Below are positions 4,506-34,261 of a stretch of 41,146 bases of DNA, in pieces; positions within the stretch are counted from its first letter, which is position 1; the number at the start of each line of letters is the position of its first letter. The DNA is taken from positions 1-41,146 of the forward strand of contig CAIQQH010000047.1 in NCBI GenBank assembly GCA_903873915.1, read 5' to 3'. The notes beneath the pieces were generated by a model. The model was not told the origin of the DNA, made no database searches, and worked only from the letters and a program-made list of their open reading frames with translations. The translations under genes and the position numbers were made by a program. The stretch is from an uncultured Flavobacteriia bacterium. GTDB taxonomy: Bacteria; Bacteroidota; Bacteroidia; Flavobacteriales_D; Crocinitomicaceae.

Positions 4506-4526
4506 CAAATGTCATAATGACACTAA
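4506..4526 (-). promoter_or_regulatory. Palindromic operator, site 1 (T9SS protein / isomerase)
   Basis: On the minus strand the core reads AGTGTCATTATGACA within a TTAGTGTCA-n3-TGACA palindrome. It shares the ten invariant core positions (AGTGT, the central T, TGAC) of the six sites in this window. It lies 45 bases before the start at 4571. A TAATATTG box at 4540-4547, one mismatch from TAnnTTTG, follows it, so the site would overlap or adjoin the upstream promoter element. Confidence 0.7.
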
Positions 4527-4570
4527 GTAAATTTTATCGTAATATTGCCTAAACAATTAAACTATTTAAT

Positions 4571-5284
4571 ATGAAAAAAATCTTTACAATTCTTTCAGTA
4601 CTCGGTTTGAGTATTGCTTCTTACGCGCAGGTAACTGTAACGTATCAGGTTGACATCAATGCTTACATTGCTGCGGGTAACACCCTAAACGCTAACGGTA
4701 TGCGTGTTGGTGGTAACTTCACATCAAATGGTGCAGCAGTACTTGATTGGACTCCTGCTGATGCTGCTTCTGCAATGACAGATCTTGGAAACGGTATTTG
4801 GTCAATCGACGTAACTTACCCTACTGCTTCTGTTGGTGCTACTCAGTACTACAAATTTGTAAACGGTGACTGGGGAACAAACGAAGGAACAGATCCAGCA
4901 AACACAATCGCTACTGGTGGATGTGGTGTTGACGACGGTTCTGGTAACATCAACCGTACATTGACTATCCCTTCTTCTAACACAACATTGTGTTATGTAT
5001 GGGATGCGTGTACTGCTTGTGCTGCTGGTTTGACTGAAGCAGCGATCAACAATGTTGTTGTTTCGCCTAACCCAGTAAACGAAACTGCAACATTTACATT
5101 TGCATTGAACGGAACAAATGATGTGACAATCACTTTGTTTGACCTTACTGGTAAAGTTGTTTCTACAACAACAGTTTCTAATCAATCATCTGCTGCGGTA
5201 AACACTGCTGCGTTGAACGCAGGAACTTACATCTACACTGTGAAAGCTGGCGAAAGCACGGTTACAGGAAAGATTGTTAAGTAA
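4571..5284 (+). CDS. Small secreted T9SS type A protein, candidate glycan-binding
   Basis: The 237-residue product has a signal peptide (residues 1-19, cleaved at SYA-Q). Residues 20-150 form a single beta-sandwich-like module with QVDINAYI, MRVGGNF, MTDLGNGIWSIDV and YYKFVNGDWGTNEG. That pattern (VDM-like strand, net gain strand, YKF-NGD) occurs in starch-binding-like modules beside glycosidases in this phylum. Four cysteines occur (near 117, 139, 146, 149). Residues about 160-237 are a T9SS type A sorting domain (VVSPNPVNETATF, LFDLTGKVV, LNAGTYIYTVKAG, TGKIVK), so it should be attached to or released from the cell surface. It lies 67 bases before a secreted GH13 enzyme and behind an operator copy. 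No SusE or SusF gene is present, so it may fill such a role; this is inference. Confidence 0.75.
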   Translation: MKKIFTILSVLGLSIASYAQVTVTYQVDINAYIAAGNTLNANGMRVGGNFTSNGAAVLDWTPADAASAMTDLGNGIWSIDVTYPTASVGATQYYKFVNGDWGTNEGTDPANTIATGGCGVDDGSGNINRTLTIPSSNTTLCYVWDACTACAAGLTEAAINNVVVSPNPVNETATFTFALNGTNDVTITLFDLTGKVVSTTTVSNQSSAAVNTAALNAGTYIYTVKAGESTVTGKIVK

Positions 5285-5304
5285 TCTGACATAACTTATT
5301 GGTT

Positions 5305-5333
5305 AACCCGGGCCTAGTGTCCGGGTTTTCTTT
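5305..5333 (+). terminator. Terminator-like hairpin between T9SS protein and GH13 genes
   Basis: AACCCGG and CCGGGTT pair around a nine-base loop and are followed by TTTTCTTT. It lies 20 bases after the stop codon at 5284 and 18 bases before the next start. The downstream gene shows no operator copy of its own, so this may be a partial terminator that lets the small upstream gene be expressed more strongly. Confidence 0.7.
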
Positions 5334-5351: not shown

Positions 5352-8123
5352 ATGCGCGCTATAAAATCCTTTGCTTTAATAACTGCCATGTGCTTTACGT
5401 GGTCTGTGTCCGCACAAATTCTGGATGTAAGTCCAGCTTTCCCGACTGTAAATGATGTGGTTACAATCACCTATAATGCCGCAGAAGGAAATGGCGCTTT
5501 GCTGGGAACAAGTGCAGTGTATGCGCACATGGGATTGATTACTGATCAAAGCACTTCTCTAAGCAATTGGCTTTTTGTTCAGGGTACCTGGGGAACAGCA
5601 GATGCCAGCGTTCAAATGACAAATCTCGGAAACAACATTCACCAGATCACGGTCGATATGGACGTTTTTTATGGATTTCCAGCAGGTACGGTGGTTGAGA
5701 AAATGGCATTCGTTTTTCGCAATGCTGCAGGAACAACAGTTGGTCGTTCGGCCGATGGATCCGACATCTACTACGATGTGTATCCGGCAACAGCGGGATT
5801 TCTCGCTAAAATCTTTTCCCCTGAAAATGTGATGGCTGTTAACCTCGGGGCCTCAGTGCCACTCGTAGGAAAAAGCAATCAAAACGCAAACTTGACTTTT
5901 ACAGACAACAACGTTCCGATTGCGAATTCAGCCTCTGCTGCCGTGTTGTCTCAAAATTATACAGTGAATACACCAGGCGAACACTGGATTCGTTTCTCCG
6001 CCGATAACGGTATAGAGGTGATTACCGATTCAGTGCTCATCGTGGTCAATCCACAACCCACACTTATCGATCCACCAGCTGGATTGCTCAACGGATTAAA
6101 TTATGTCGATCAGAATACGGTAATCTTGAAGCTTTACGCACCGGATAAAAACAACATCTATGTACTGGGTGACTTCAATGGATGGTCCCCAAGTTTGGCC
6201 TATCACATGAACCTGTCACAGGATTTAAAGACCTGGTGGATTCAACTCAGCGGACTTCAGCCCGATACAAAATATGGATATCAGTATTACATCGATGGAG
6301 TGCAGCGTTTTGCAGACCCATTGAGCTTGCGTGTGGCAGATCCGAGCAATGACGGAACAATTAGTGCTGCAACCTATCCAAACCCCTATGTTTATCCAAC
6401 AGGACAGACTACTGGTTTGCTTTCTATTTTTGAAACTAATCCAACGAATTTTTCGTGGCAAAATGATGGGTACCAAAAGCCGGCGAAAAAAGAATTAATG
6501 ATCTATGAATTGCTTGTGCGCGACTTCGTGGCAAAACGAAATTACCAGACACTCATCGATACCTTGGCTTACTTAGATCAACTTGGTGTCAATGCCATTG
6601 AGTTGATGCCTGTAGGTGAATTTGAAGGAAATGAAAGTTGGGGGTACAACCCAAGTTTTCACATGGCACTTGACAAGTATTATGGCACGCCAGAGAAGTT
6701 TAAAGAATTCGTAGATTCTTGCCACGGCCGTGGGATTGCCGTAATCATGGACATCGCGCTCAACCATGCTTTCGGACAAAACCCGATGGTAAATATGTAC
6801 TGGGATGCAGCGAATAACCGTCCTGCCGCAAATAACCCTTGGTTCAATGCCATCTGTCCGCATAGCCCATATTGTTGGGGATACGATTTTAATCATGAGG
6901 TACAAGCCACCAAGGACTATGTGGATCGCGTAAATCGCCATTGGATGAATGAATTTCACATCGATGGATACCGCTTTGACTTTACAAAGGGCTTTGTCAA
7001 CAGTGGAGCGAATTACAGCAATACACGCATCGCAATCATCAAACGCATGGCTGATTCTCTTTGGATACAACAGCCAGAGGCCTATGTGATTTTGGAACAT
7101 TGGGCCGATAATGCAGAAGAAACGCAACTCGCCAACTACGGCATGATGCTCTGGGGTAACTTAACTTACGAATATCATCAAGCGATGAAAGGGTACAATT
7201 CTAACCTAACCAATGGGATTTATTCCTCTCGCGGCTGGACAAGTCCTCATTTGGTCACCTATAGTGAAAGTCATGACGAAGAACGCGGTATGTATGAATG
7301 TTTGTCGGCCGGTGTTTCGACGAATCCTGACCACAACGTCAAGGAATTACCAATCGCTCTGTTGCGCGCGCAAGCTGCAGGAGTAATGCTGCTCACAACA
7401 CCAGGTCCAAAGATGATTTGGCAGTTTGGTGAACTCGGATACGATATTTCCATTGACAACCCTTGCCGCATTTGCAATAAACCCATTTTGTGGGCGTACT
7501 ATCTGCAAAACAATCGCCGTCAATTGTTCGATGTGTATGCAGCGACGTTAAAGTTGAGAACGGAAAACGCAGTCTTCAATGATGGAACGTTTTCTCATGC
7601 CTTGAATGGTTCTGTGAAGAAAATCACCTTTGCACATCCGTCAATGGACGCCATGGTGATTGCCAATTTTGCGGTGACACAGCAAACACCTTATGCTGGA
7701 TTTCCACACACAGGAATGTGGTATGAATACTACACGGGAGACAGTATCGATGTGACCAATGTGAACATGCAAATTTCAATGACTCCAGCGGAATACCGTG
7801 TTTATACAACTGTCCATCTACCAAAACCAACGATTCTTTCAACGGTAGGCTACGAGGAGTTGGCGATGGATGATTTTGATTGCACTCTTTATCCTAATCC
7901 AGCTACGGAGGAATTGTTCATTCGTTCACAACGTGATCTAACGCAAGTTGTGGTGAGAGTGATTGATCATAGCGGCCGCGCAATGAAGTCAATCAAGCAG
8001 AATTCATTGTTGGCGAATGAGGCGTTAAAAATCACGCTCAATGACATCGTCAATGGGACGTATTTACTGTTGATTGAAAGTACTGAAGGATATTATTCGC
8101 AAGAATTTGTAAAGCAGAATTGA
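5352..8123 (+). CDS. Secreted modular GH13 alpha-glucan hydrolase with CBM48 and T9SS domain
   Basis: This 923-residue enzyme should cut alpha-1,4-glucans at the cell surface. After a signal peptide (1-21) come an N-terminal beta-sandwich (about 22-145) resembling starch-binding modules, an Ig-like stretch (about 150-235), a CBM48-like domain (about 255-330, with VYVLGDFNGWSP-type sequence), a GH13 barrel (about 370-800) and a T9SS type A domain (about 845-923, LYPNPATEELFI, GTYLLLIE). The GH13 triad is present: nucleophile D543 (DGYRFDF), acid/base E582 (VILEHW) and D642 (ESHDEE). The CBM48 before the barrel recalls pullulanase/isoamylase/branching-type GH13 members, so the exact linkage cleaved is open. 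It is probably co-transcribed with the small T9SS protein by readthrough. The complete catalytic triad argues for an active enzyme. Confidence 0.85.
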   Translation: MRAIKSFALITAMCFTWSVSAQILDVSPAFPTVNDVVTITYNAAEGNGALLGTSAVYAHMGLITDQSTSLSNWLFVQGTWGTADASVQMTNLGNNIHQITVDMDVFYGFPAGTVVEKMAFVFRNAAGTTVGRSADGSDIYYDVYPATAGFLAKIFSPENVMAVNLGASVPLVGKSNQNANLTFTDNNVPIANSASAAVLSQNYTVNTPGEHWIRFSADNGIEVITDSVLIVVNPQPTLIDPPAGLLNGLNYVDQNTVILKLYAPDKNNIYVLGDFNGWSPSLAYHMNLSQDLKTWWIQLSGLQPDTKYGYQYYIDGVQRFADPLSLRVADPSNDGTISAATYPNPYVYPTGQTTGLLSIFETNPTNFSWQNDGYQKPAKKELMIYELLVRDFVAKRNYQTLIDTLAYLDQLGVNAIELMPVGEFEGNESWGYNPSFHMALDKYYGTPEKFKEFVDSCHGRGIAVIMDIALNHAFGQNPMVNMYWDAANNRPAANNPWFNAICPHSPYCWGYDFNHEVQATKDYVDRVNRHWMNEFHIDGYRFDFTKGFVNSGANYSNTRIAIIKRMADSLWIQQPEAYVILEHWADNAEETQLANYGMMLWGNLTYEYHQAMKGYNSNLTNGIYSSRGWTSPHLVTYSESHDEERGMYECLSAGVSTNPDHNVKELPIALLRAQAAGVMLLTTPGPKMIWQFGELGYDISIDNPCRICNKPILWAYYLQNNRRQLFDVYAATLKLRTENAVFNDGTFSHALNGSVKKITFAHPSMDAMVIANFAVTQQTPYAGFPHTGMWYEYYTGDSIDVTNVNMQISMTPAEYRVYTTVHLPKPTILSTVGYEELAMDDFDCTLYPNPATEELFIRSQRDLTQVVVRVIDHSGRAMKSIKQNSLLANEALKITLNDIVNGTYLLLIESTEGYYSQEFVKQN

Positions 8124-8329: not shown

Positions 8330-9367
<1,038 letters not shown>

Positions 9368-9388
9368 TTAGTGTCAATTTGACATTAA
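9368..9388 (+). promoter_or_regulatory. Palindromic operator, site 2 (gap)
   Basis: The core is AGTGTCAATTTGACA, with TTA and TTAA extending the arms to almost perfect symmetry; it is the most symmetrical of the six. On the minus strand a TTG within the site is followed 18 bases later by TACATTAG, so the site would cover the -33 region of the gap promoter. It also lies just past the stop codon of the amylase gene at 9406. Confidence 0.75.
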
Positions 9389-9405: not shown

Positions 9406-11757
9406 TTACTGTCGAACGATGCGCTGGCGGAAAATGTGTCCGTCGTAGTTGATCACAAGGAGATAGTTGCCGTCTTCAATAGCGGAGACATCCAAACTGA
9501 AACTTCGCGAATCGATGGGATGAACAGCTATAGGCACTTGTTTCCCATCCATGCTATACAGCTGAATTTCTGCATCAACAGGCATAGGAACCAGGTATTC
9601 AACAGTGACCTCTGTCTTCGCAGGATTGGGATATACCATCCATTCATCATTCGCAGATTCTTCAATTCCGGCCGACGAAGAAGTGCACGCACATTTATTT
9701 TTTGGAACGCTTGTGTCCACAATGCCTGGAGCGGTATAGATGAGTTTGACATAACATTTTTGTCCAGCCTGTGTAGCCGTAGCATTTTTTATGCGTATGC
9801 TGTACCATCCGGAGTAGGCAGGAACGATTGAATCGAGGATTGTTCCCGACGCACTCACAGAATCAATGACATTGCAATCTTTGTCTAAATAGAAAACCGT
9901 GATTGGTAAAAGTGGGTTTTCAGGATAGAGCTCAAGGTTAATTTGTTGTCCAGATTGTGCGAAGATGCGCCCCACCAAGCGGCAATCGGTACTATTTGTA
10001 GGTAAGTTTCCTCCTTGCTGAAGGGATGGAAGACTTTTGTCTCCTAAATCGCCTGCCATCTCCCATTCTTGCGTGGTACGCTTTGTCGGGCGAACATAGT
10101 TTGCTGCAATACCTTGTGGCGCCCAAATGGAATATCCACGACGTCCTTGCAAGGCAGAACCGTCACACGGTGGGATCGCAATGTTTACTTTTCCTCCGCC
10201 ATAGACAGTTGCTGTTGCCGTTCCATTGGCACCTGAATAATCGATCAAAACCGTTCCATCGGGCCAACTTGTCTGCACGCCATTGAGGTTTTGCCAGTTT
10301 GACCAAGAATCTGTCACAGCAATCAATGCTTTTGCTGAACGCTCAATCACCAAGGCATCAGCTGCTTGCCAACGAACGTTGTAAGCACCCTCTTTGAAGC
10401 GAAGGTTTTGGTGGCACCACAACAAGTTTTCAAGGTCGCTGTAGGCAGGAAGCTGAGCAGCATTCGCTGGATCGTGATTGAAACGATTTCCCAAATAACC
10501 GATGTTGAATAAATCTTCGAAGAACACTTGAGGCGAGCCATCTACGGCAAACGAAATGGCATAAGCAGCGCTGCGTCTTCCGTCGTTTGGTTCAATTTGC
10601 TGTCCAAGTTGTGAGCCGGTGTTCCATCCTGTAATGTTCCCCGTTGCATCGACAATTGGACGGTAAGTATCGTGGTTGTTGACAAAAGGAACTGTTCGCA
10701 AACGGTTTTGCTGCTGGTAATTGGGAATCGATCCGATATCGAAATTGCCATTGCCTGAAACCATCGAGGTTAAACCACCTCGGAGGGCGAAATCAAAGGT
10801 TCCTGCCCGGTTTTGGACGTTGTTTGCCCATGCATCGAGTTCTGTAGCAGTACCAACCCATTCGCCTACGGCATACATCTGATCTCCACCACTCGCCCAC
10901 AAAGATCCAAACTGAAGGTTCCAAAGAAAATCTTCTGCAGCATACGTTGGGAAGTGTTTCACAGCATCAATTCGAACTCCATCCCAACCAACTTGCTTCT
11001 TGTACCAAATGAGCCAGTTCCGTGTTTCTGTGCGCATGTAATCTGTGCTTTGTGTTGGATTAAATGTGGCATTGCTGCTCAACCCAAAGGCGCTTGTTTC
11101 GTAGGAAATATCAGGACCCCAATACGGCGAATTGATCTCGTTGGTGCAACATGGATTGCCGACGTTTGGGTAAAAATTTTGCCAGTTTTTAGAGAACCGT
11201 CCTTGACGTGCCAAATAGTCGGCGGCCGTTTCTGTAATGGCTGGTGTGTTGTAGCAGGTGTAGCGAAAATTCTTGTACTTGTTGGTTGAACCGTCGTCCA
11301 TAGCACTTGGATCATTGCCTCCTTGACCAGCGCCACTTCCAGCTCCTGTAACGTGATTGAGAACAATGTCTTGAATGACATCTATCCCATTGGCTTTTAG
11401 AACAGCAACTAAACGAAGCAATTCATCCTTATCGCCCAATCGGGTGTTGGTTGACCCTTTCTGGTATTTGTCCCCCAAATCGTAGTGGTCAAAGGGCGCG
11501 TATCCAACGCTGTTCGTTCCTGTATTTTTTATAGAAGGTGGAATCCAAACAGCATCAATCCCTAAAGCCTTCAAGCGCGGAGCAAGTTCAGCCAAGTAGT
11601 TTGCCCAATCATTGGGAAAATTTGTGTTGTAATAATCCCACCAGAATCCTTGTAGGACAATCTGTCTGCTCGGGTCGTTCACCTGGGCGCTTAAAGGATT
11701 TGTGAATGTTAAATGGTTAAGAAAAACAAGGATAAAAAGACGAAAGATGGTTTTCAT
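9406..11757 (-). CDS. Secreted alpha-amylase (GH13) with T9SS type A domain
   Basis: The 783-residue product has a signal peptide (1-24) and begins its GH13 barrel with QGFWWDYY near residue 35, the start seen in classical alpha-amylases. The triad is D264 (RIDAVKHF), E299 (AVGEW) and D363 (NNHDTY), with DIVLNH as the first conserved region. A C-terminal beta domain (about 455-540) is followed by a further beta-sandwich stretch (about 580-690) and a T9SS type A sorting domain (about 700-783: MVYPNPAKTEVTV, GNYLLVINYDG, RQRIVRQ). It should act at the cell surface on starch. It is the last gene of the operon starting at 18236, ten bases behind the GH65 gene, an unusual place for a surface enzyme after cytoplasmic ones. 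Confidence 0.9.
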   Translation of the reverse strand: MKTIFRLFILVFLNHLTFTNPLSAQVNDPSRQIVLQGFWWDYYNTNFPNDWANYLAELAPRLKALGIDAVWIPPSIKNTGTNSVGYAPFDHYDLGDKYQKGSTNTRLGDKDELLRLVAVLKANGIDVIQDIVLNHVTGAGSGAGQGGNDPSAMDDGSTNKYKNFRYTCYNTPAITETAADYLARQGRFSKNWQNFYPNVGNPCCTNEINSPYWGPDISYETSAFGLSSNATFNPTQSTDYMRTETRNWLIWYKKQVGWDGVRIDAVKHFPTYAAEDFLWNLQFGSLWASGGDQMYAVGEWVGTATELDAWANNVQNRAGTFDFALRGGLTSMVSGNGNFDIGSIPNYQQQNRLRTVPFVNNHDTYRPIVDATGNITGWNTGSQLGQQIEPNDGRRSAAYAISFAVDGSPQVFFEDLFNIGYLGNRFNHDPANAAQLPAYSDLENLLWCHQNLRFKEGAYNVRWQAADALVIERSAKALIAVTDSWSNWQNLNGVQTSWPDGTVLIDYSGANGTATATVYGGGKVNIAIPPCDGSALQGRRGYSIWAPQGIAANYVRPTKRTTQEWEMAGDLGDKSLPSLQQGGNLPTNSTDCRLVGRIFAQSGQQINLELYPENPLLPITVFYLDKDCNVIDSVSASGTILDSIVPAYSGWYSIRIKNATATQAGQKCYVKLIYTAPGIVDTSVPKNKCACTSSSAGIEESANDEWMVYPNPAKTEVTVEYLVPMPVDAEIQLYSMDGKQVPIAVHPIDSRSFSLDVSAIEDGNYLLVINYDGHIFRQRIVRQ

Positions 11758-14047: not shown

Positions 14048-14681
14048 AGAGGGAAAGATTAAAGTCTGTCAATGTTTCAACATAGGCGTGTGCCAATTCA
14101 GCTACGTGTGGATTTCCTATCGCAATGACATTAAAACCACCTGCTTTTGCAGCCATTATTCCACTTTCGGCATCTTCAAAGACCAAACAATCGGCTGCAC
14201 TCAATCCCATCCCTTGCGCTGCATTGAGGAATACTTCAGGATCTGGTTTTGGTGCGCTCACCCCATTTCCATCGATGATGACATCGAACATGTATTTGAT
14301 TTGAAGAAGTTCGAGAATAGCATTGGCATTCTTACTGGATGATCCCACCCCAAGTTTGATGTCGTGTGCTTTGGCGTGTTGCAAAAGTTCAACAACACCC
14401 GGGAGTGCATCGGCAGGTCCAAGTGTTCGAATGGATTCTAGGTAGATCTCGTTTTTAAACACCAGGAGTTCCTCAAAGACTTCAGATGAGACTGTTGCTC
14501 CAGCCAAAGTGATGATTTTTTTTAATGAATCTATCCGACTTATGCCTTTCAATTGTTCATTATCCAATTTTGTGAATTGGAATCCAAGTCGTTCAGCGGT
14601 TTTTTTCCAAGCGATAAAATGGTTCTTTTCTGTAGAGACCAAGACACCATCCAAGTCGAAAATGAGGCCTTTGATTTTCAT
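14031..14681 (-). CDS. pgmB: Beta-phosphoglucomutase
   Basis: A 216-residue HAD-superfamily enzyme that converts beta-glucose-1-phosphate to glucose-6-phosphate. FDLDGVL (residues 8-14) contains nucleophile D9 and acid/base D11; GVGSSSKNA (about 113-121), KPDPEVF and FEDAESGI are HAD motifs II-IV. The length is typical. The gene directly abuts the transporter stop and its 3' end overlaps the GH65 start by 17 bases, which indicates translational coupling. The pair GH65 plus beta-PGM is the standard module for phosphorolytic disaccharide use. Other HAD phosphatases share the fold, but context makes beta-PGM by far the best reading. Confidence 0.9.
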   Translation of the reverse strand: MKIKGLIFDLDGVLVSTEKNHFIAWKKTAERLGFQFTKLDNEQLKGISRIDSLKKIITLAGATVSSEVFEELLVFKNEIYLESIRTLGPADALPGVVELLQHAKAHDIKLGVGSSSKNANAILELLQIKYMFDVIIDGNGVSAPKPDPEVFLNAAQGMGLSAADCLVFEDAESGIMAAKAGGFNVIAIGNPHVAELAHAYVETLTDFNLSLYEESF

Positions 14682-18258: not shown

Positions 18259-18279
18259 TTTGTGTCAAAAATACACTTT
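18259..18279 (-). promoter_or_regulatory. Palindromic operator, site 3 (kinase operon / regulator)
   Basis: The minus-strand core is AGTGTATTTTTGACA, identical to the core of the zwf site. It sits in the 90-base gap between the divergent kinase and regulator genes. It could therefore govern both the six-gene operon and the regulator's own gene. Confidence 0.72.
18266..18273 (-). promoter_or_regulatory. -7 element of the kinase operon
   Basis: Minus-strand TATTTTTG matches the Bacteroidota TAnnTTTG consensus and lies wholly inside operator site 3. A TTTT sits 20 bases upstream where TTTG is expected. Binding at the operator would block this promoter. Confidence 0.5.
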
Positions 18280-19078: not shown

Positions 19079-19110
19079 TTTGAATTTCATGCATACTTAG
19101 TGTATTTTTG
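19079..19110 (+). promoter_or_regulatory. Promoter of the Entner-Doudoroff operon
   Basis: TTTG (19079-19082), 20 bases, then TATTTTTG (19103-19110) matches the Bacteroidota promoter consensus exactly. The -7 box is inside the operator at 19097-19117. A second TATTTTTG at 19123-19130 lacks a well-spaced partner. Confidence 0.6.
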
Positions 19111-21300: not shown

Positions 21301-21301
21301 T

Positions 21302-25402: not shown

Positions 25403-28400
25403 TTAAAAGTCAAACGTCAAATTGAGTGAGTACATGCGTGGACGAGGATAAATGTTGTTATCGATTCCACCATTTACTTCAGGATCTTGTCCACTATATT
25501 TTGTAATCACAAGCACATTGGAAACGACAAGCGAAGCATTCAAACCAACTTTTTTCCCTGTCCATTCCATCTTACCGAAGTTATATCCAAGATTGATATA
25601 ATCCAAGCGAAGGAAGTTCGCTTTTTCCAAATAATGGTCGCTCAACAACTGACGCTCTGTGGTTTTTTGGAATTGTTCGTTGTAGTACAACTGTGAAATA
25701 TTACTCAGATATTGTTGTGTTCCATTCACGGATTGAAATGTTGCGTTGTTTGAGTGAATGTTGTTGTAGATGTATCCACCCAACTCGCTGCGCATGGAAA
25801 GTCCCAAATACCATTTTTTGTAGCTAAAGTTTAAAGTCATTCCGAGGAATACGTTTGGTGCTGCTTTGTGTGAAATGTAACGGTCGTCGATATTGATTAC
25901 TCCATCGCCATTTCGGTCTACAAATGCATCCAAATCCGTGTATTTTGTTCCTGTTGGATTACTAGGGTCGATTGGTGCACCTGACTCAATTGGATTTCCA
26001 TTGGCGTCGTATTGTTGCTCGTACACAAAGTAAGAGAAGGTTGGATTGCCCAATTGGTGAACTTGCACAGTGTTTCCAATTCCTCCAGAAATTCCTCCCA
26101 CCAAAATCCCTGGGCTATTAGGATCATTTACCTGTGATAGTTTCAACACGGTATTCTTGTTGTAGGTACCATTTACCATGATGTCGAAACGCATGTCCTT
26201 TTTCGCAATTACACCGATATTCGTGCTCACTTCAATTCCTTTATTGTTCATACTTCCCACATTCGTTAAAATCTGATTGGTGAAGTTTGACCCTGCAGGA
26301 ACAGGTACAGTTGCCAAAAGGTCTGTTGTTGTTTTCGTGTACAAATCTATCGAACCACTGATGCGGTCTTTCAAGAAGCCAAAGTCAAGTCCGACATTAT
26401 AACTTGCGGTTTGTTCCCATTTTAAATTTGCATCAAATCCTCCTGGACGGAATACCGTGTAGTATTGTCCACCAAAAGCATATTGTGCGCTAGTCGCTCC
26501 TTGATAGTAGTTTGAAATGTAGGCGTAATCACCGATCCCATCTTGCTGACCTGTAACCCCATAACCCCCGCGAATTTTTAAAAGGTTTAATCCTTTGATG
26601 CTTTTCATAAATTCTTCGTTGGTTATAATCCACGCTGCAGAAACAGATGGGAAAAGACCCCAACGGGTATCGGGACTGAAACGAGAAGATCCATCGCGAC
26701 GAAGTACAGCATTGAACACATACTTATTGTTGAAGGTGTAGATCAAACGACCATAGAAGGAAAGCAATGCATTTTTCGTATAGAATGGATTTGCTTCAGC
26801 AACTTGAATCACTGAATCAGGCTTCCCCAAACTGTATGTTGCGTTATTTGGACTTGCAGTGTACCAATCTTGGTATGAATACCCAAGTGTGACATCCACC
26901 AAGTGTTTTGATTTTTTTTCTCCGTTGTTGAAATTTGCGTAAGCTTCTAACAACTTGTTTCCTTTCGTTTGGCGGTATTGGCTATAACTTCCTAAAGAAA
27001 AATAACCAGATGCAGAGTTTACAGGAACTGTTACGCTACCTGATCCTTCAGATTGGTCAGTACCAGCATTCACAACAACTTTGACCATTGGGAAGAAATG
27101 AAGCTTGTAAGACAGTTTCACATTCCCAATCAAACGGTTCACCTTGCTCACATCTTCTCGAGAATAGAGTAATCCAACTGGATTTTTTGGTGCCAAAGTC
27201 ACAGGTTTACTGCCGTCCATCCACTCGTAATAGTTGTTGATTCCAGCAGTGTCATTCACAGGTTTTGTTGGATCGAAATAAGCCGCACCCAACGCGCCTC
27301 TGTTGGCAAAGAAATTTTGTGTATGTACAATTCGGGTGTTCAATTCCACTTGTAAATGCTTGTCGAAGAAGGATGGTGTCATGCTCAATGAAGCAGATGT
27401 TCTGTTGAACAAGTCACGACGGAGCAATCCATTTTCGTTTCGATTTCCCATAGATAAGCGGTATGGTAAATTCTTTATTCCTCCGGTTACTGAAGCGTTG
27501 TTGTCGGTGACAAAAGCATTGTGGAAGACTTGACGTTGCCAGTCTGTACTGGCAGTACCCAACAAAGCTGCTTGTGTGGCTGTTCCGTTCGTTGTAATCA
27601 AATTGCGGTATTCATCAGCACTTAATACATTGGCATATTTTGCTACTGTAGAAAGCGATTGCTTCGTATCTACAACCACCGTGACTTTATCATTAAGTCC
27701 TGTTCCTTTTTTCGTTGTAATGAGAATGACCCCATTGGCACCTCTCGAACCATAAATAGCTGTTGCAGAGGCATCTTTTAAAATGACGAAAGAGGCAATG
27801 TCATTCGGGTTAATGAGTGATAAGGGGCTCGAAGCTCCTGAGATTCCTCCGTTGTCCAAAGGAACACCGTCTACAACGATCAATGGATCGTTGCTCGCAT
27901 TGATGGATGTTCCACCGCGCAAACGAATGGTACTTCCTGATCCTGGCGCACCATCGTTGGAGTTTACTTTAACCCCTGCGGCTTTCCCCATGATGAGCTG
28001 TTCTGGTGTTGATACTGAACCCTGAACGAAATTCTTATCGGTCAAAACCGATGCAGAACCTGTCATATCGGTGGTGCGTGTTGTTCCATAGCCAATCACG
28101 ACTACCTCATCAATTTCTTGTACTGCAGAAACAAGAACGGCATCAGAAATCAATGTTTGATTCGCGCTCAAGGTAATTGACCGTGTCACCGTAGTGAATC
28201 CTGACGATCTGAAAATCAATTTGTAATCACCTGCAGGAATGTTCGTAATGGAATAATACCCTTTGTCGTTTGTCAAGGCCCCTCTAGATTGTCCTTCGAG
28301 AATGACTGATGCATTGTACAGAGGTTCATTCAAAGAGTCTGTTACGGTACCTTTGATCGTCGCTCCTTGGGCAAACGCTTCCGTGCTTGTCATTGCGACA

Positions 28401-28438
28401 AAAGCCATTGAAAGCGCAGTAAGTACTGATTTTAGCAT
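25403..28438 (-). CDS. susC: SusC-family TonB-dependent outer-membrane transporter
   Basis: A 1011-residue outer-membrane receptor. After the signal peptide (1-24) comes a carboxypeptidase-like domain (about 28-105, IKGTVTDSLNEPLYNASV), the TonB box region EIDEVVVIGYG (about 109-119), a plug domain (about 120-240 with LRGGTSINASNDPLIVVDG) and a beta-barrel ending in aromatic F (SLNLTFDF). It imports oligosaccharides into the periplasm, powered by TonB, together with SusD. It has its own operator and a near-perfect promoter upstream, but the preceding GH31 stop codon is only 74 bases away with no terminator between, so readthrough from the CotH operon is likely. Length is normal for SusC. Confidence 0.95.
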   Translation of the reverse strand: MLKSVLTALSMAFVAMTSTEAFAQGATIKGTVTDSLNEPLYNASVILEGQSRGALTNDKGYYSITNIPAGDYKLIFRSSGFTTVTRSITLSANQTLISDAVLVSAVQEIDEVVVIGYGTTRTTDMTGSASVLTDKNFVQGSVSTPEQLIMGKAAGVKVNSNDGAPGSGSTIRLRGGTSINASNDPLIVVDGVPLDNGGISGASSPLSLINPNDIASFVILKDASATAIYGSRGANGVILITTKKGTGLNDKVTVVVDTKQSLSTVAKYANVLSADEYRNLITTNGTATQAALLGTASTDWQRQVFHNAFVTDNNASVTGGIKNLPYRLSMGNRNENGLLRRDLFNRTSASLSMTPSFFDKHLQVELNTRIVHTQNFFANRGALGAAYFDPTKPVNDTAGINNYYEWMDGSKPVTLAPKNPVGLLYSREDVSKVNRLIGNVKLSYKLHFFPMVKVVVNAGTDQSEGSGSVTVPVNSASGYFSLGSYSQYRQTKGNKLLEAYANFNNGEKKSKHLVDVTLGYSYQDWYTASPNNATYSLGKPDSVIQVAEANPFYTKNALLSFYGRLIYTFNNKYVFNAVLRRDGSSRFSPDTRWGLFPSVSAAWIITNEEFMKSIKGLNLLKIRGGYGVTGQQDGIGDYAYISNYYQGATSAQYAFGGQYYTVFRPGGFDANLKWEQTASYNVGLDFGFLKDRISGSIDLYTKTTTDLLATVPVPAGSNFTNQILTNVGSMNNKGIEVSTNIGVIAKKDMRFDIMVNGTYNKNTVLKLSQVNDPNSPGILVGGISGGIGNTVQVHQLGNPTFSYFVYEQQYDANGNPIESGAPIDPSNPTGTKYTDLDAFVDRNGDGVINIDDRYISHKAAPNVFLGMTLNFSYKKWYLGLSMRSELGGYIYNNIHSNNATFQSVNGTQQYLSNISQLYYNEQFQKTTERQLLSDHYLEKANFLRLDYINLGYNFGKMEWTGKKVGLNASLVVSNVLVITKYSGQDPEVNGGIDNNIYPRPRMYSLNLTFDF

Positions 28439-28462: not shown

Positions 28463-28496
28463 CAAATGTAATAAAAAAAATATGTATATGTCAAAA
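28463..28496 (-). promoter_or_regulatory. Promoter of susCD
   Basis: On the minus strand TTTTG (28492-28496), 21 bases, then TACATTTG (28463-28470), an exact match to the Bacteroidota -33/-7 consensus. The leader to the susC ATG is about 20 bases. Confidence 0.65.
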
Positions 28497-28505
28497 TGAC
28501 ACTAA
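28485..28505 (-). promoter_or_regulatory. Palindromic operator, site 5 (susC)
   Basis: Minus-strand core AGTGTCATTTTGACA with TTA on the outer left arm. It covers the -33 box of the susC promoter and lies seven bases from the GH31 stop codon. Confidence 0.78.
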
Positions 28506-28512: not shown

Positions 28513-30906
28513 TTACCACAAAATGTTCACGCGATTTTTCTTTCCATTTCCAACATCTTGAATGCGCACCTCATGCAAGGCTTCATTGTATGAAAAGCTC
28601 ACATTTTTCGTGTTTACTTTCACGGATTTAGGCGAATTTGGTACATTTCGGACGACAAGTTCATCTGCAATCGCACCCTTTATTGGCTTTTCAGTAACAT
28701 AAAAATCAAAGACCGAACGACCACCCAATAGTTTGTAATGCATTTGGATGAGGCTATAGTTTCCGTTCTCTATGGCTTGTGCATCTGTGCCATTGTCTGT
28801 ATAACAAATTCCATTGGCTTCGGGTATGTTTGGATCTAGGTAGAATAAAATATCTATGTTTTCTGTCTTAAACTCGGAGGTGTGCTGCATACCTGGACAA
28901 AGCGTAACAAAGGTCCCACTTTTCACATAGGTAGGAATGTGGTCCATGGTAGTGCGTATACGTTGTTTGTTGATTCCTTCGCCACCATTCACGCGGATGT
29001 ATCCCGGTGAATAATAATCAAACCATGTTGTGTTAGTTGGAAAATAAACGGTCACTTCACTCGCTTTTGGATCGGTCACAGGCGTCACCAAAAAGGCATC
29101 ACCCCACAAATAAGTGGATGAGATGCGGTAGGATGCTGTGTCGTTTGGTGTCATGTAAAATAGAGGACGCATCAGCGGAGTTCCTTTCGTACTATTGATG
29201 TAAGCCAAGGTGTAATTGTAGGGCAATAAATCATAGCGCAACTGCACTGCTTTTTTCGCCAGGGCTTTTGTTTCCGCATCTTTGAAGACTGGTTCACTCG
29301 CCACTTCTTCTTGGGCATGAGGTCGGAAAATGGGTTGGAAAACACCATATTGCAACCACCGCACATACAATTCTGGATCGTCATTTGCTCCGCCGAAACC
29401 ACCCAAATCAGAGTGCATGTATCCAATGCCTTGCAGTCCCATTTGAAGTGAGATCTCTGTTTGCGGACGCAATCCACCCCATGTTCTGTTTACATCGCCC
29501 GACCATGGAATCATACCATAGCGTTGAGATCCAGCGGCACCAGCACGCATTAAAATAAAAGGTCGAACGTTGGGATACTTCGATTGATATCCTTTGTGAA
29601 TCAAGCCCGCCCAGTCATGCCCATAAATGTTGTGCACCCAATCAGCAGGGCCATTGGCATGTCTTAAATCATGCGGATGTACTTCTGGTTCGCCAAGATC
29701 TCCCCAGAAACCGCTTACGCCTCGTTCAATCAGTCCAGAATAAATATTCCAAAACCAGCGTTTTCCTGCATCGCTGTAAACATCAATCAAGCCCGTGTTT
29801 CCAAAATAGAAGTTGTAGGTAAATGGTTTTCCGAGACTGTCCTTGCACAAGATATCATTGTCAACAGCTTCTTTCCAGCGGTCGGATGTGGTGAGAACAA
29901 AAGGTTCGGTGATCAGCACGGTATGTACATTTTTCGTATTAAGGTCCTGAATCATTTTATCCGGTGAAGGGAAAGAGTCGGTGTAAAATTTTAAATTCCC
30001 CATGGTGCCTTGGATCTCTTTGCCAAACCAATACAGGTCTAAGATTACTGCATCGAGTGGAATGCTGTCCTTGAAAAATTGGTTCACCGTATATTCGACT
30101 TCATCCTGTGAGTGATAACCAAAGCGGCTAGCGAAATTTCCAAAAGCCCAACGTGGAGGCAGGGGTTGTCTGCCTGTAATGCTTGTATAATTCGCGATGA
30201 GGTCTTCCCATGAATCTCCTCCGATGACTTGATAAACCATTCGTCCAGCGACTGTTTCATAGACGATGCTGTTATCGCCCTTTGAATCCAGATCCAAGAA
30301 TCCAATCGGTGCATTATCGAAATGAATCATGTAGCGGTTTGAACTGATCACAATCGGGATGGTGTAGTTCATTAACACCGAACGTTCCTCATACCCGTAA
30401 TGTGCCCTGTTGTAAAGTTCGAGTCGATTTCCACGACGGTTCATACCCAAAGCGCGTGCGCCACCTCCAAACAAGGCTTCATCTTTTGTGATGCTGAAGG
30501 AGAGCGACTTGTTGTCATTGGTCAATTTTTGGTAGCCATTTTTCTCTGAAAAGAGGAGAGTTGTCCCTTGGAAGTAGTTTACATTGAAAGGTTTTTTTTG
30601 AATCTCAACACGCACCCCATTTCCATTGCATATGCTCAATACATCTGTTGTTTCTATAAATTCAATGTCATCTGTTTGATTGGCAATCACTGCGTGTGAC
30701 TCGGTGTTCATCGTTTCGCTAGAGGGAACGAAGGCAGTTTGCAGAACAAAAGGACTAAAATAGGAGAAGTGGTAACTTCCGTCGGACACAAGTACAACAA
30801 TCGTTTTACCCTCCTTTTTCACCGATTCATAGCTGCGGGATTGACCTTGTGAAAAGGCAGTTAAGCCAATTAGAATAAAAGCGAACAAGTTGAAAATATG
30901 ATTCAT
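28513..30906 (-). CDS. GH31 alpha-glucosidase, periplasmic
   Basis: A 797-residue GH31 enzyme with signal peptide (1-19) and no T9SS domain or lipobox, so probably periplasmic. The N-terminal beta-sandwich (about 25-235) precedes the barrel (about 245-590). FWGDLGEPEVHP contains the nucleophile D403, and IPWSGDVN contains the acid/base D471. ILDLYWFGKEIQG (about 280-300) is characteristic of alpha-glucosidases of the SusB-like functional group in this phylum, although SusB itself is GH97. It would release glucose from non-reducing ends. The ATG overlaps the stop of the GH13 gene upstream (ATGA), so the two are coupled. A GLGEPE-like change in the nucleophile motif, compared with WDMNE of many GH31, suggests a distinct subgroup; xylosidase or other alpha-glycosidase specificity cannot be ruled out. 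Confidence 0.87.
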   Translation of the reverse strand: MNHIFNLFAFILIGLTAFSQGQSRSYESVKKEGKTIVVLVSDGSYHFSYFSPFVLQTAFVPSSETMNTESHAVIANQTDDIEFIETTDVLSICNGNGVRVEIQKKPFNVNYFQGTTLLFSEKNGYQKLTNDNKSLSFSITKDEALFGGGARALGMNRRGNRLELYNRAHYGYEERSVLMNYTIPIVISSNRYMIHFDNAPIGFLDLDSKGDNSIVYETVAGRMVYQVIGGDSWEDLIANYTSITGRQPLPPRWAFGNFASRFGYHSQDEVEYTVNQFFKDSIPLDAVILDLYWFGKEIQGTMGNLKFYTDSFPSPDKMIQDLNTKNVHTVLITEPFVLTTSDRWKEAVDNDILCKDSLGKPFTYNFYFGNTGLIDVYSDAGKRWFWNIYSGLIERGVSGFWGDLGEPEVHPHDLRHANGPADWVHNIYGHDWAGLIHKGYQSKYPNVRPFILMRAGAAGSQRYGMIPWSGDVNRTWGGLRPQTEISLQMGLQGIGYMHSDLGGFGGANDDPELYVRWLQYGVFQPIFRPHAQEEVASEPVFKDAETKALAKKAVQLRYDLLPYNYTLAYINSTKGTPLMRPLFYMTPNDTASYRISSTYLWGDAFLVTPVTDPKASEVTVYFPTNTTWFDYYSPGYIRVNGGEGINKQRIRTTMDHIPTYVKSGTFVTLCPGMQHTSEFKTENIDILFYLDPNIPEANGICYTDNGTDAQAIENGNYSLIQMHYKLLGGRSVFDFYVTEKPIKGAIADELVVRNVPNSPKSVKVNTKNVSFSYNEALHEVRIQDVGNGKKNRVNILW

Positions 30907-32789
30907 CGCAATTCGATTATATAGGAGGTTTTTGGAGTTAAATTCCAGCTGTTTGCATTAAGTTCAAAGGTTTGTTCAGACAAAACATCGGTACCTGTTG
31001 AAAGGCCGCTATATGCTTCATTGAAGCGCGAAGGATTGATCGATTGAGCTATATTGCTGTTGTTTAAAATAACCATCACTACCTTGTGTTCAAGGATGCG
31101 AAAATACACATAGACATTGTTTTCTGGAATAAAATGGATCATTTTTCCGGAGTGAAGAACAGCGTTATTTTTTCGGTAATTCAACACCTTTTTTGTGAAT
31201 GCATGGTAGGCCTCTTGTTGAGGATTTCGACCAGGCACATTGTGCTGAAAGCCCGTTGTTTCTTTGCTGTCTTCAGCTTGAAAGGCATTGAGTGCGTCAC
31301 TTGGCCACCCACCAGGAAAATCCTGACGAATGTCGGCATCACCCACTTCTTTTTTTCCCGCCATTCCGATTTCTGAACCGTAGTAAATTTGTGGGATTCC
31401 TCGGCACGTGGAAATCAACGTCAATGCAAGTTTGTAATCATCGAGACTTGGACAGATTTCATTGAAGCGCTGGGTATCGTGATTTTCAAAGAACACCAAT
31501 AAATTCTGCGGATCGTTGTACAGAAAATCGTTTGAGAAATTGTCGAAGAAGCGCACAACGCCTTTGTCCCATCCTTGCTCATTTTCTTTTAACGCTCCTA
31601 GAATCGCATCGTGCAAGGTGAAGTCCATCACAGAAGGCAAGTGGGTGTTGTAGTCTTGTATGGCTGAAATAGGGCTGTCTTTTTGCCAATAAGACATCTG
31701 TGCTTGGTCGTGTAGCCAAATTTCACCTACCATATTCAAGTTGGGATATTCATTCATGATTTGTGCTGTCCAATCGGCAATTCCTTCCTTGTCATTAAAG
31801 GAATAGGTATCGATCCGAATCCCATCCAAATCGGCATATTCAATCCACCAGATGGTATTTTGAACGAGGTAATTCAAGACCAAGGGGTTGCGTTGATTTA
31901 AGTCGGGCATGGAACGCACAAACCATCCATCTTCGCAGTAGTAGGTATCGCGCGCTGAATGGTGGTTGTCCATGTGTGTGGAGGTGCGGTAATTGGTTTG
32001 TCCGTAACCTGGAAATTGGTGAATCCATTCGTAGGTCGGTAAATCATTCATCATCCAATGGGCTGCTCCCCAGTGATTAGGGACCACATCCATGATCATT
32101 TTCATCCCATTTTTGTGGCATTGTTTCACGAGCGAACAGTACTCATCATTGGTTCCGTAGCGCGGATCGACACGGTACAAATCACTCTGTCCGTAGGTGT
32201 GGTAACTGTATTCGGCATCGTTGTCCTCCAATAAAGGGGTACTCCAAATGGCTGTTGCTCCAAGATCTTTGATGTAGCTTAAATGATTCGCGATTCCTTG
32301 AAGGTCACCACCATGTCTTCCTCCCGGAAGGGAACGATTGCCCTTTTCAATGGTGCTTGGATCACTATCGTTGTTTGGATTTCCATTGGCAAATCGATCG
32401 GGCATTAAGAGATAAATCACATCCGAACCATTGAAACCTGACCGTGCGGCCGAACCTTCACGGCGTTGCTTTAAGGTATAAGAAACGGTATGCACAATCT
32501 TGTTCCCCTTTTTAAAATTGAGGGCATAATCTCCAGGATTTTTTCCACTTGTCGCAATTTTAACGAATAGGTAGTTGGGGTTTTCAGTGCGCGTAAGGCC
32601 TAAAATCTGAAGTTGATCTGAGCTCGGAGTGAGTTGACTAATGTCCTTGCCATGAATCATGATTTCGACTTCATGATGCGCCATACCCGCCCACCAAAAA
32701 GCAGGTTCAATGCGATCTATTGGCGAGTCTTTCGCACTTAAGGGTGTGACGCTAATTGCAAGAAGAAGCAGTGAGAAAAGGTATTTCAT
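30903..32789 (-). CDS. Neopullulanase/cyclomaltodextrinase-type GH13 enzyme (SusA-like)
   Basis: The 628-residue product has a signal peptide (1-19), an N-terminal Ig-like domain of the cyclomaltodextrinase type (about 22-110, IEPAFWWAGM), a GH13 barrel (about 120-540) starting with VIYLLMPDRFANG, and a C-terminal beta domain (about 545-628). The triad is D327 (GIRIDTY), E356 (VGEIWL) and D438 (ENHDTQRF). GGRHGGDLQGI and MDVVPNH support this GH13 group. It should degrade maltodextrins, cyclodextrins or pullulan in the periplasm, as SusA does. It lies three bases after the CotH gene and overlaps the GH31 gene by four. Confidence 0.9.
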   Translation of the reverse strand: MKYLFSLLLLAISVTPLSAKDSPIDRIEPAFWWAGMAHHEVEIMIHGKDISQLTPSSDQLQILGLTRTENPNYLFVKIATSGKNPGDYALNFKKGNKIVHTVSYTLKQRREGSAARSGFNGSDVIYLLMPDRFANGNPNNDSDPSTIEKGNRSLPGGRHGGDLQGIANHLSYIKDLGATAIWSTPLLEDNDAEYSYHTYGQSDLYRVDPRYGTNDEYCSLVKQCHKNGMKMIMDVVPNHWGAAHWMMNDLPTYEWIHQFPGYGQTNYRTSTHMDNHHSARDTYYCEDGWFVRSMPDLNQRNPLVLNYLVQNTIWWIEYADLDGIRIDTYSFNDKEGIADWTAQIMNEYPNLNMVGEIWLHDQAQMSYWQKDSPISAIQDYNTHLPSVMDFTLHDAILGALKENEQGWDKGVVRFFDNFSNDFLYNDPQNLLVFFENHDTQRFNEICPSLDDYKLALTLISTCRGIPQIYYGSEIGMAGKKEVGDADIRQDFPGGWPSDALNAFQAEDSKETTGFQHNVPGRNPQQEAYHAFTKKVLNYRKNNAVLHSGKMIHFIPENNVYVYFRILEHKVVMVILNNSNIAQSINPSRFNEAYSGLSTGTDVLSEQTFELNANSWNLTPKTSYIIELR

Positions 32790-32792
32790 TGG

Positions 32793-34226
32793 TTAATGTA
32801 TTGGGAAATAGGTGCGGGTTTGGCCATTGGCATCCTGAAGAATCAAGAGCTGACCTTTGGTACTTAAGGGAACTTCTTGTCCCATCAGGTTGAATGCTTT
32901 CACAGGGATAAATAGGTTAGGTTCAAGTTCATTGATTGCCAAGGGACAAGGGTTTTGCAAGCCTTGATATGATGTTTGATTGTTCGCTGATCCTTTGCGG
33001 TTCACAACAAAAGAATAGATGGATGAGGTAACATGAGCACCTGCTGCTTGTGTTATTGCATCTAGAAAATTTTGATCTGTAAATCCGTAATCAAGTGCTT
33101 TATACGTATCTTCCAGAGCTGCACTTTCAATCAGTGCTTGTTTGTCGGTAAGTAATGTGTTGATGCTTTGTTCAGTGTAAAAACTCGTGATGGCTTGATC
33201 CATATAATAGGTGTACAAGTCTTTGAAGTAAGGCACATTCATTAGCCGCGTATAAAGTGGTCGAGGCTGATTGCTTTGGGACCATTGATAGATGTTTCTT
33301 GTTGCCCAATTGATCCCCATCCAATCGATCCCGAAGGTATTGTCCATGTCATACTCGATAAACACGAATTTTCCATCTGAAGGACGCTGATAGAGGTAGA
33401 AGTTGTTTTTGTTGTAGGAATGTCCGTCCCAATGGCCTGCCAGTACTTCAATCACCAAGGTGCGGAGGTAGAGGTCAACATCTAAAATTTGTTGAATGAC
33501 GCACGGAAAATCTGCATCGCTGCAGGTGTTTAGTGTGTTGAGAAAGGAAATTAATCCGCTGTAATCGTTGAGAGCTGTGTTTGTTTTCAATTCATAGTAG
33601 GGCACATAGGCAGCTTGTCCAGTTCCATGAAAGGTCATGTCAGCTCCCCAATTGGCCTTGTATAGATTGCCATAGTCATCCCCAGGGAAACGCAAAGTGA
33701 TGAAATTCTCATCGATATGCTCAGCATTGTAATACAAGCCTTTGTATTCGCCATTGACATATAGCCGCACGTAACTGTTTCGTGTTGAGATCACATTTTG
33801 ATCGCGTAAAAGTGAAGCAGAAAGAAATGAACGTAGGATAGAGGGATCGTTGTGCTCGCCGTTTAAGTTGAGCTTTTCTAGTCCAAGCCATTTCTGTCCT
33901 TGTACAAAGCTATTCATCGAAACTTTGAAGGACTTTTTTGCGGCAAATCGGGATGTATTTCCACGGAGTCTAAAACCAACGTTGTCCACTGAATCGACCA
34001 ATACTGAACTAACATATTTGAATTTGGCTGAATATTCATGGTTTGCTTGAAGGCTATCCGGGTGTAGCATCAATGCCAGATCGGCAGAGTCTATTTCAAT
34101 AAAGACCGATGCTACTTCATTTTGAATGAATGCATTGTTATCTGTCGGATGCAACTGGGCAATCACAGAACTAGATGTGAAGATCACAAGCAGAAGGACA
34201 GCTATTTGACATGATGATTTCAGCAC
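32793..34226 (-). CDS. Secreted CotH kinase-family protein
   Basis: Read from a GTG at 34226 this gives 477 residues: signal peptide (about 1-24, LKSSCQIAVLLLVIFTSSSVIAQ region), then a CotH domain (about 40-410) with GFRLRGNTSR, KKSFKVSMN, LNLNGEHNDPS, YVRLYVNGEYKGLYYNAEHID and the acidic EYDMDNTFG that corresponds to the metal-binding motif. The C-terminus (FNLMGQEV, QLLILQDANGQTRTYF) resembles a short T9SS type A tail. CotH proteins in spore coats are atypical protein kinases; bacterial secreted members are poorly understood. A longer frame from TTG 34265 is unlikely because an operator and a TATATTTG box lie within that extension. It heads the operon with the SusA-like and GH31 genes. Its part in glucan use is unknown. 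Confidence 0.82.
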   Translation of the reverse strand: MLKSSCQIAVLLLVIFTSSSVIAQLHPTDNNAFIQNEVASVFIEIDSADLALMLHPDSLQANHEYSAKFKYVSSVLVDSVDNVGFRLRGNTSRFAAKKSFKVSMNSFVQGQKWLGLEKLNLNGEHNDPSILRSFLSASLLRDQNVISTRNSYVRLYVNGEYKGLYYNAEHIDENFITLRFPGDDYGNLYKANWGADMTFHGTGQAAYVPYYELKTNTALNDYSGLISFLNTLNTCSDADFPCVIQQILDVDLYLRTLVIEVLAGHWDGHSYNKNNFYLYQRPSDGKFVFIEYDMDNTFGIDWMGINWATRNIYQWSQSNQPRPLYTRLMNVPYFKDLYTYYMDQAITSFYTEQSINTLLTDKQALIESAALEDTYKALDYGFTDQNFLDAITQAAGAHVTSSIYSFVVNRKGSANNQTSYQGLQNPCPLAINELEPNLFIPVKAFNLMGQEVPLSTKGQLLILQDANGQTRTYFPIH

Positions 34227-34240
34227 AGCGAAAGGTTTTC

Positions 34241-34261
34241 TTAACGTCAAATATACACTAA
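34241..34261 (-). promoter_or_regulatory. Palindromic operator, site 6 (CotH operon)
   Basis: Minus-strand core AGTGTATATTTGACG, with TTA and TTAA outer arms. It differs from the consensus only at the last core base. It lies 15 bases before the proposed GTG start and about 60 bases before the divergent lipoprotein gene. Confidence 0.7.
34248..34255 (-). promoter_or_regulatory. -7 element of the CotH operon
   Basis: Minus-strand TATATTTG matches TAnnTTTG exactly and is embedded in operator site 6. I see no convincing -33 TTTG at the right distance. Confidence 0.45.

Follow-up and report, generated by a model that had tools for sequence, protein, structure and literature searches.

Six promoters in a starch and maltose gene cluster of an uncultured Flavobacteriia bacterium share a 21-bp palindrome, which is conserved in relatives and is found mostly where a particular Nudix-type regulator gene is also present. 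Judging from the sequence, a single switch protein, whose gene lies midway in the cluster, very probably binds at this palindrome. We propose that this protein, an NrtR-family repressor, would act through the palindromes on the genes leading from starch to pyruvate, in the manner of the model given below, and we put the probability of this reading at about 0.8.

The stretch of DNA analysed here (the window, 41,146 nucleotides) is contig C47 of a MAG of 2.8 Mb, which is 87.5% complete and consists of 137 contigs. Its genes, named by profile matches or similarity, and its predicted operators are collected in Table 1.

Table 1. Genes and predicted operators of the window, in order of position.
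Feature	Coordinates	Strand	Sequence or remark
Bifunctional phosphoglucose/phosphomannose isomerase-like (pgi-like)	3461..4441	-	
Operator 1	4506..4526		CAAATGTCATAATGACACTAA; between divergent pgi-like gene (-) and X25/T9SS protein (+)
X25/T9SS-tailed protein	4571..5284	+	X25 below its Pfam cut-off
Secreted amylase, CBM48-like part and T9SS tail	5352..8123	+	membership by position after X25 only
gap, type I GAPDH	8330..9331	-	
Operator 2	9368..9388		TTAGTGTCAATTTGACATTAA; upstream of gap; matrix score 30.1
Secreted amylase with T9SS tail	9406..11757	-	
GH65 phosphorylase	11768..14047	-	maltose phosphorylase by context
Beta-phosphoglucomutase	14031..14681	-	TIGR01990 above cut-off
MFS sugar transporter	14682..16037	-	
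GH13 amylase	16042..17382	-	intracellular type by context
Sugar kinase (kin), BadF/NagK/MurK-like	17379..18236	-	divergent from nrtR; just below Pfam cut-off
Operator 3	18259..18279		TTTGTGTCAAAAATACACTTT; common to kinase-maltose operon (-) and nrtR (+)
NrtR-family regulator (nrtR; Nudix-like domain and NrtR_WHD)	18327..19058	+	alternative start 18315
Operator 4	19097..19117		TTAGTGTATTTTTGACATAAA; upstream of zwf
zwf, glucose-6-phosphate dehydrogenase	19152..20645	+	ATG 19152
pgl, 6-phosphogluconolactonase	20632..21300	+	
edd, phosphogluconate dehydratase	21281..23098	+	
eda, KDPG aldolase	23108..23665	+	
susD	23808..25391	-	
susC	25403..28438	-	
Operator 5	28485..28505		TATATGTCAAAATGACACTAA; upstream of susC
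GH31 alpha-glucosidase	28513..30906	-	
Cyclomaltodextrinase-type GH13	30903..32789	-	
CotH-domain protein	32793..34226	-	GTG start 34226
Operator 6	34241..34261		TTAACGTCAAATATACACTAA; upstream of CotH-cyclomaltodextrinase-GH31 operon; matrix score 23.9

A preliminary description of this DNA had placed six palindromes in the window, and each of them is found where it was placed. The consensus is approximately TTARTGTCAWWWTGACAYTAA, which is the GTGT-N7-ACAC frame of the NrtR family. The claim of ten identical positions among the 15 of the core is correct if every palindrome is turned to whichever orientation fits better (at best ten invariant columns over a 15-column span), while in one fixed orientation the number is lower. 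The first site, assigned originally to the promoter of the T9SS protein, lies between divergent genes and thus also faces the pgi-like gene. The assignment of the last site to the CotH promoter is borne out once the start codon is corrected: the listed TTG start at 34265 would place the site within the reading frame, whereas a start at the GTG yields a protein whose alignment with the CotH homologues of two further genera begins at residue 8, so that the site falls in the promoter. An operator of its own was not seen for the secreted amylase that follows the X25 gene.

With a pattern of two 6-bp halves and three mismatches, the window has 21 matches against 21.2 expected, while the 21-bp form with three mismatches gives 3 against 0.03 expected, all three being among the six sites. 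We built a symmetrised 21-bp matrix from the six window sites alone; these score, by construction, 30.1, 26.6, 24.9, 24.8, 23.9 and 21.1, and no other place in the window exceeds 10.8. Since the chance figure of the preliminary description was post hoc, the motif was tested on sequence that its reader had not seen. The sample comprised 78 relatives (80 were fetched, and L089 and L090, same species, were dropped); the GTDB relatives are mostly labelled Crocinitomicaceae or Flavobacteriales MAGs. At a score of at least 12, the intergenic DNA (84,303 bases) has 97 places and the coding DNA (1,187,079 bases) has 23; 14 of the latter are the kin/nrtR site, overlain by a reading frame that is spurious or too long. 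None of 200 column-permuted matrices, applied to every fourth locus, reached the real count of 30 (permuted mean 7.0, maximum 27). That the motif is a coincidence of AT-rich promoter sequence, chosen after looking, would fit the chance-level count of the loose 12-base pattern, but is refuted by the tests on unseen genomes, and its probability can be taken as negligible.

Conservation in relatives, on which the preliminary description had made its proposal depend, is indeed found. At the same threshold, a site is present in the promoter of kin in 58 of 61 relatives (plus 6 of 9 with a short reading frame between), of zwf in 14 of 15 (plus 2 of 2), of nrtR in 50 of 67, of susC in 6 of 7, of gap in 4 of 5 and of pgi in 1 of 2, compared to 15 of 332 unmatched promoters and none of 247 intra-operon gaps. 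CotH has no row in this comparison of the 78 relatives and was compared separately. Sites are found at each of the six window promoter positions in two or more other genera. The arrangement at operator 1 is the same in L070 and L215, which are of the same genus/species, and in two other genera (L262 and L268) a site lies upstream of X25-type genes that are 32–34% identical. The gap site occurs also in three loci of other genera (L250, L257 and L263), the zwf site in L278 and L281, and the susC site in L249 and L251; in L264 and L269 the site precedes CotH homologues with identities of 54% and 51%, respectively.

We also read singly 65 of 80 exact-palindrome loci of relatives: 46 face a regulon-type gene, where gdhA and glgE are counted as such only because they recur, or are met, among the sites themselves; 15 face another gene or a contig end, and 4 lie within genes. 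Scans with up to one mismatch in three genomes of other genera (98–99% complete) are noisy, with 22 places in G035 (15 for the reversed pattern), 11 in G046 (3) and 10 in G031 (13). Regulon-type promoters account for 7, 7 and 3 of these, respectively, in a reading that covered all but 8 of the 22 places in G035, all but one of the 11 in G046 and part of those in G031. The seven promoters in both G035 and G046 are those of gap, susC, zwf, the CotH homologue (54%/51%), the X25-type gene (32%/34%), pdhA and pdhB, and those in G031 are kin/nrtR, gap and pckA.

We now turn our attention to the regulator. Its profile scores are 98.5 bits for PF21906 (cut-off 27), 48.4 for AraR_C (23.8) and 25.1 for NUDIX (21.1), and a Nudix-like N-terminal domain is joined to an NrtR winged helix. 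A palindromic GTGT-N7-ACAC operator lies near its gene, as for members of the NrtR family. The catalytic signature of Nudix enzymes, GX5EX7REUXEEXGU in the form given in the available text of PMC4666351, is absent from the protein, the corresponding stretch reading GDLIFEDEPLDTAANRVLNELTG. As for an NAD-type assignment, the best NCBIfam match, NF050029, reaches 124 bits against a cut-off of 400. By sequence and by predicted fold (the best of five models, with uneven confidence from 83.6 down to 54.1), the regulator is an NrtR-family member closest to the sugar branch (AraR/XylR-like).

The closest template is BtAraR (BT0354), the NrtR-family L-arabinose repressor of Bacteroides (PDB 5BS6, 5DD4, 5DDG and 5DEQ; PMC4666351), to which the regulator is 44% identical (91 of 206 aligned residues). 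As far as the available text of that paper goes, the two share the Nudix-like and winged-helix domains, the broken Nudix box, the DNA-contacting Lys-Arg-Asn of the recognition helix and a 21-bp operator in the GTGT-N7-ACAC frame (compared with the BtAraR oligos), whose inner part is CAWWWTG here. Arg34, Phe129 and His131 of BtAraR correspond to R30, F142 and H144, while Arg86 corresponds to R83 only by our own gap placement, the printed alignment pairing it with Q98. Part of the sugar pocket is altered: Phe36, Gly48 and Phe49 are replaced by Thr32, Asp45 and Leu46, and about 15 extra residues, 84–98, follow Arg83.

The presence of the sites follows that of the regulator. Orthologues, defined by at least 57% identity, occur in 71 of 200 family genomes (57–99% identity; two of the 71, G155 and G071, are fragments), while other relatives reach at most 48%; G021 (48%, ambiguous) was counted as lacking the regulator. 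Among the relatives that carry the gene is the isolate Cryomorpha ignava (L161). Of the 71 genomes that have the regulator, 48 contain the exact palindrome, compared to 9 of the 129 that lack it (73 and 12 sites, respectively); this association has p = 1e-19, which overstates independence as the genomes are related. In six of the nine, the site lies within a gene or precedes a gene of a different kind, and two (G146 and G159) are incomplete assemblies. G022, which is 100% complete, is a true exception, with a site before gdhA and no regulator orthologue found. In the order as a whole, matches to the regulator (E ≤ 1e-60) occur in 153 of 299 genomes, in six families, with 44–60% identity in the other families. 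Upstream of the regulator in five other families, 16 of 18 regions score at least 12 and 14 of 18 have the strict GTGT-N7-ACAC; the inner CA is often replaced by TA there, so the operator drifts together with the protein.

These observations bear on the alternative that the palindromes are true operators of another transcription factor, for example of Crp, LacI or ROK type, and that the Nudix protein is a co-located passenger. G022 could be explained in this way, and binding of the regulator to the sites is itself a prediction from sequence. On the other hand, conservation is highest at the site between the kinase and nrtR itself, the site persists upstream of the regulator in other families, its presence follows the regulator, and the operator spacing and recognition residues match BtAraR. 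We therefore consider a different factor very unlikely. The proposal that capture, phosphorolysis, the Entner–Doudoroff genes and GAPDH form one unit is thus supported by sites that are conserved in relatives and track the regulator.

The extent of the regulon given originally is supported for the six promoters but incomplete, since pdhA, pdhB/etfB, pckA and probably pgi would also belong to it, as would gdhA and GlgE in relatives. In the own genome, there are five copies of the strict palindrome RTGTCAWWWTGACAY (reversed control 0): upstream of pgi/X25, gap and susC in the window, and outside it between pdhB (E1-beta) and etfB (C40) and upstream of pdhA (E1-alpha; C42). With up to one mismatch, the 21-bp pattern has 14 places, and 9 of them, including all six window sites, are pathway promoters rather than genes or unrelated promoters. 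Among these is pckA (PEP carboxykinase, Pfam-based), with a site 147 bp upstream (L174). Of the other five places, three lie within genes (C9, C72 and C89), one is a weak intergenic site (C85, score 10.6) and one is beside an NAD-type NrtR paralogue (C3). This separate paralogue adjoins a ribose-phosphate pyrophosphokinase (PRPP synthetase)-like gene and has sites of the GTGTA..TACAC/TACGC type nearby; it was rejected as the binder on account of these halves and this neighbour. With up to two mismatches only background is seen (42 places against 43 for the reversed pattern).

The gene pdhB is present in 189 of the 200 family genomes. Its promoter carries a site in 6 of the 11 regulator-bearing genomes counted and in 0 of 14 that lack the regulator (p 0.003), or in 1 of 15 if G146 is placed in the second group (p 0.02). 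In these counts, G155 (a 71-base stretch) was dropped, G106 was kept with only 190 bases, and G046 was dropped because the palindrome itself had been used to retrieve its locus. Immediately upstream of the two pdhB(int) genes, in L125 and L138, no site is present. Sites at pdhA and/or pdhB occur in three genera (g1, g16 and g11) and at pckA in three genomes of two genera (L174, L072 and L184); those read at gdhA (NADP-glutamate dehydrogenase) belong to genus g22. As 23 of the 71 regulator genomes lack an exact palindrome and the pdhB site is absent in 5 of 11, the outer regulon appears to drift. One could instead envision a purely local maltose/starch regulator, with the pdh, pckA and gdhA sites due to chance or to paralogues. 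The less uniform retention of these sites and the gdhA sites read in g22 would agree with that, but the recurrence of the pdh and pckA sites across genera does not, nor does the fact that two of the five exact palindromes in a 2.8-Mb genome are pdh sites. A local role is thus unlikely, and the wider regulon is retained in what follows.

The promoter consensus of Bacteroidota is TAnnTTTG, which has a background of about 0.3% per position. Of 11 distinct zwf promoters, 9 have the element starting 15–17 bp beyond the centre of the operator; the distance is 22–25 bp in 4 of 6 susC promoters, and in 28 of 45 kin promoters the element lies 18–19 bp before the centre, whereas for nrtR it is found at 33–35 bp in only 10 of 38. 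In the window, the element is seen both inside operator 4 and 16 bp after its centre, and at susC it reads TACATTTG, 25 bp after the centre of operator 5. The window operators of zwf, kin and CotH contain TAnnTTTG, which would explain why one of their halves reads GTGTA instead of GTGTC. The fixed distances at zwf, kin and susC would fit the geometry of a repressor. It is important to note that in the own genome the element lies only 57–96 bp past the operator centre at pdhA, pdhB and pckA, and that no exact copy was found at pgi, gap and X25, so that the argument for steric repression is weak for these genes.

The regulator could also be an activator, switching the set on upon binding of a sugar or phosphosugar. 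At pdhA, pdhB, pckA and susC of the own genome the element is 25–96 bp downstream of the operator centre, which leaves room for upstream activation at some promoters. However, the zwf operator abuts and partly contains the element, the kin operator, with the element just upstream, would cover the predicted start, and in the available text of PMC4666351 NrtR and BtAraR are either called repressors or said to be released by effector. Activation seems improbable to us, and the model is formulated for a repressor.

In the absence of alpha-glucan, a dimer of the regulator would bind over or beside the core promoters and repress starch capture (susCD, the secreted amylases and the CotH operon), maltose uptake and phosphorolysis (kinase-GH13-MFS-pgmB-GH65), the Entner–Doudoroff operon (zwf-pgl-edd-eda), gap and probably pgi and, outside the window, pyruvate dehydrogenase (pdhA and pdhB) and PEP carboxykinase; through the operator common to the kinase and nrtR it would also repress its own gene. 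A sugar derived from maltose would then enter the Nudix pocket. This effector is probably glucose or a metabolite of it, the strongest candidates being free glucose itself and its phosphorylated products G6P, 6PG and KDPG. Its binding would rotate the winged helices in the way known for L-arabinose and BtAraR, and the DNA would be released. The kinase, made from the same operator, would finally remove the signal, which would constitute a feedback. It resembles MurNAc/GlcNAc kinases of known structure, and given the maltose phosphorolysis operon, glucose is the natural guess for its substrate. It is odd that catabolic (Entner–Doudoroff, PDH) and gluconeogenic (pckA) genes would be under one simple repressor, unless some sites act differently, as in RccR.

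Control of susCD and amylases is also exerted by MalR-type LacI regulators, of a family different from the Nudix regulator. SusR, the starch regulator of Bacteroides, likewise controls susCD and amylases and is of another family; its predicted motif in the available text of PMC3878776 is a long-spaced direct repeat, unlike the 21-bp palindrome here, and SusR-type repeats were rejected on this difference in form. NrtR, the ADP-ribose-responsive NAD regulator (Shewanella, 3GZ5/3GZ6), is 27% identical to the regulator, and NAD biosynthesis genes are not among the predicted targets in the window and at the own-genome sites. BtAraR, as far as described in PMC4666351, similarly stands over SusCD-type and sugar catabolic genes, whereas the targets here are alpha-glucan and central carbon genes; no arabinose catabolic genes (araMPRDAB) were recognised at the 9 own-genome target promoters.

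The best reading is that the regulator is a functional counterpart of HexR/RccR, the KDPG-responsive RpiR-family regulators of proteobacteria (PMC5489143, PMC3223726, PMC5507952). In the portions of these accounts available, Entner–Doudoroff genes, gap, pckA and PDH (aceEF there) are under metabolite-responsive regulation, and predicted operators precede all of these here. The regulator would work like HexR/RccR without being a member of that unrelated family: no RpiR helix-turn-helix or SIS domain was found in it, the Pfam matches being NrtR_WHD, AraR_C and NUDIX only. Starch capture is not mentioned in those portions, while here outer-membrane capture, phosphorolysis and central carbon genes carry one motif. 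The global central-carbon regulators of proteobacteria given in the available text of PMC5507952 are HexR, FruR, CceR and GluR; none is named for Flavobacteriales in the portions of the open-access literature examined, nor did we find there a report of an NrtR/Nudix regulator of maltose, starch or Entner–Doudoroff genes.

We consider it rather likely that the protein is a Nudix-derived master regulator of central carbon metabolism across much of Flavobacteriales, in which one palindrome ties together starch capture, phosphorolysis, the Entner–Doudoroff pathway, GAPDH, PDH, pckA and, in some genera, gdhA. Its origin would be independent of that of HexR/RccR, FruR and CceR and would lie in a family known mainly for the control of NAD metabolism; glucose or an Entner–Doudoroff intermediate, sensed by a remodelled pocket with an insertion of 15 residues, would be a novel effector in this family. 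The analysis offers a concrete candidate for such a regulator in this order, together with its predicted operators and targets and a template for its structure. The results also suggest that, beside the arabinose and xylose branches, NrtR-type sugar sensors have a third functional one, which would be useful for naming genes now called 'Nudix hydrolase'. If true, glycan capture loci would be joined to core metabolism by one switch, and the control from starch and maltose to pyruvate and acetyl-CoA would be carried out here by a protein unrelated to the regulators that do so in other bacterial groups.

We now turn to the palindrome, the predicted operator of the NrtR-family regulator, in related genomes. 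In genus g22, it precedes the NADP-glutamate dehydrogenase gene (gdhA) at a distance of 28-96 bp (loci L084, L088, L193, L195, L196, L198, L199, L201, L202, L204, L205, L208 and L212), and the genes at these sites are 88-100% identical to the profile-checked gene of L205. Judged from sequence, this arrangement hints at a carbon/nitrogen link. The 100%-complete genome G022 has kept the gdhA palindrome (L212), although the search there yielded no regulator orthologue.

Exact palindromes were also observed at other genes. In g22 genomes (L085, L206, L210) they lie between a Clp-type AAA ATPase gene, assigned by a profile run on L210 only, and a divergent gene. In two g1 genomes (L071, L080) one is located ca 32 bp upstream of a class I/II aminotransferase-fold gene, for which the profile was run on L071 only.

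The genome itself encodes additional NrtR paralogues, of which the second is probably an NAD-type NrtR. A gene similar in appearance to that at the third paralogue's locus is found in three g22 genomes (L194, L203, L211), with an exact palindrome ca 35 bp upstream; a Pfam profile search with the L211 gene returned no family. Matches to the large ORF at the window end occur close to the regulator in several relatives.

Coordinates of the paralogues, nearby sites and large ORF
Feature	Location	Strand	Context
Second NrtR paralogue (L002)	G000:C3:3775-4425		adjoins ribose-phosphate pyrophosphokinase-like gene
GTGTA..TACAC/TACGC-type sites	C3:3742, 4447, 4499		near second paralogue
Third NrtR paralogue (L003)	G000:C19:15442-16077		adjoins secreted protein with GTWKLA stretch
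1825-residue ORF	window 35418-40895	-	end of window

Compared to BtAraR, the arabinose-responsive relative, the regulator has an insertion of ca 15 residues (residues 84-98, window 18576-18620) without counterpart there, which contains invariant D, W, L and R and adjoins the predicted ligand pocket.
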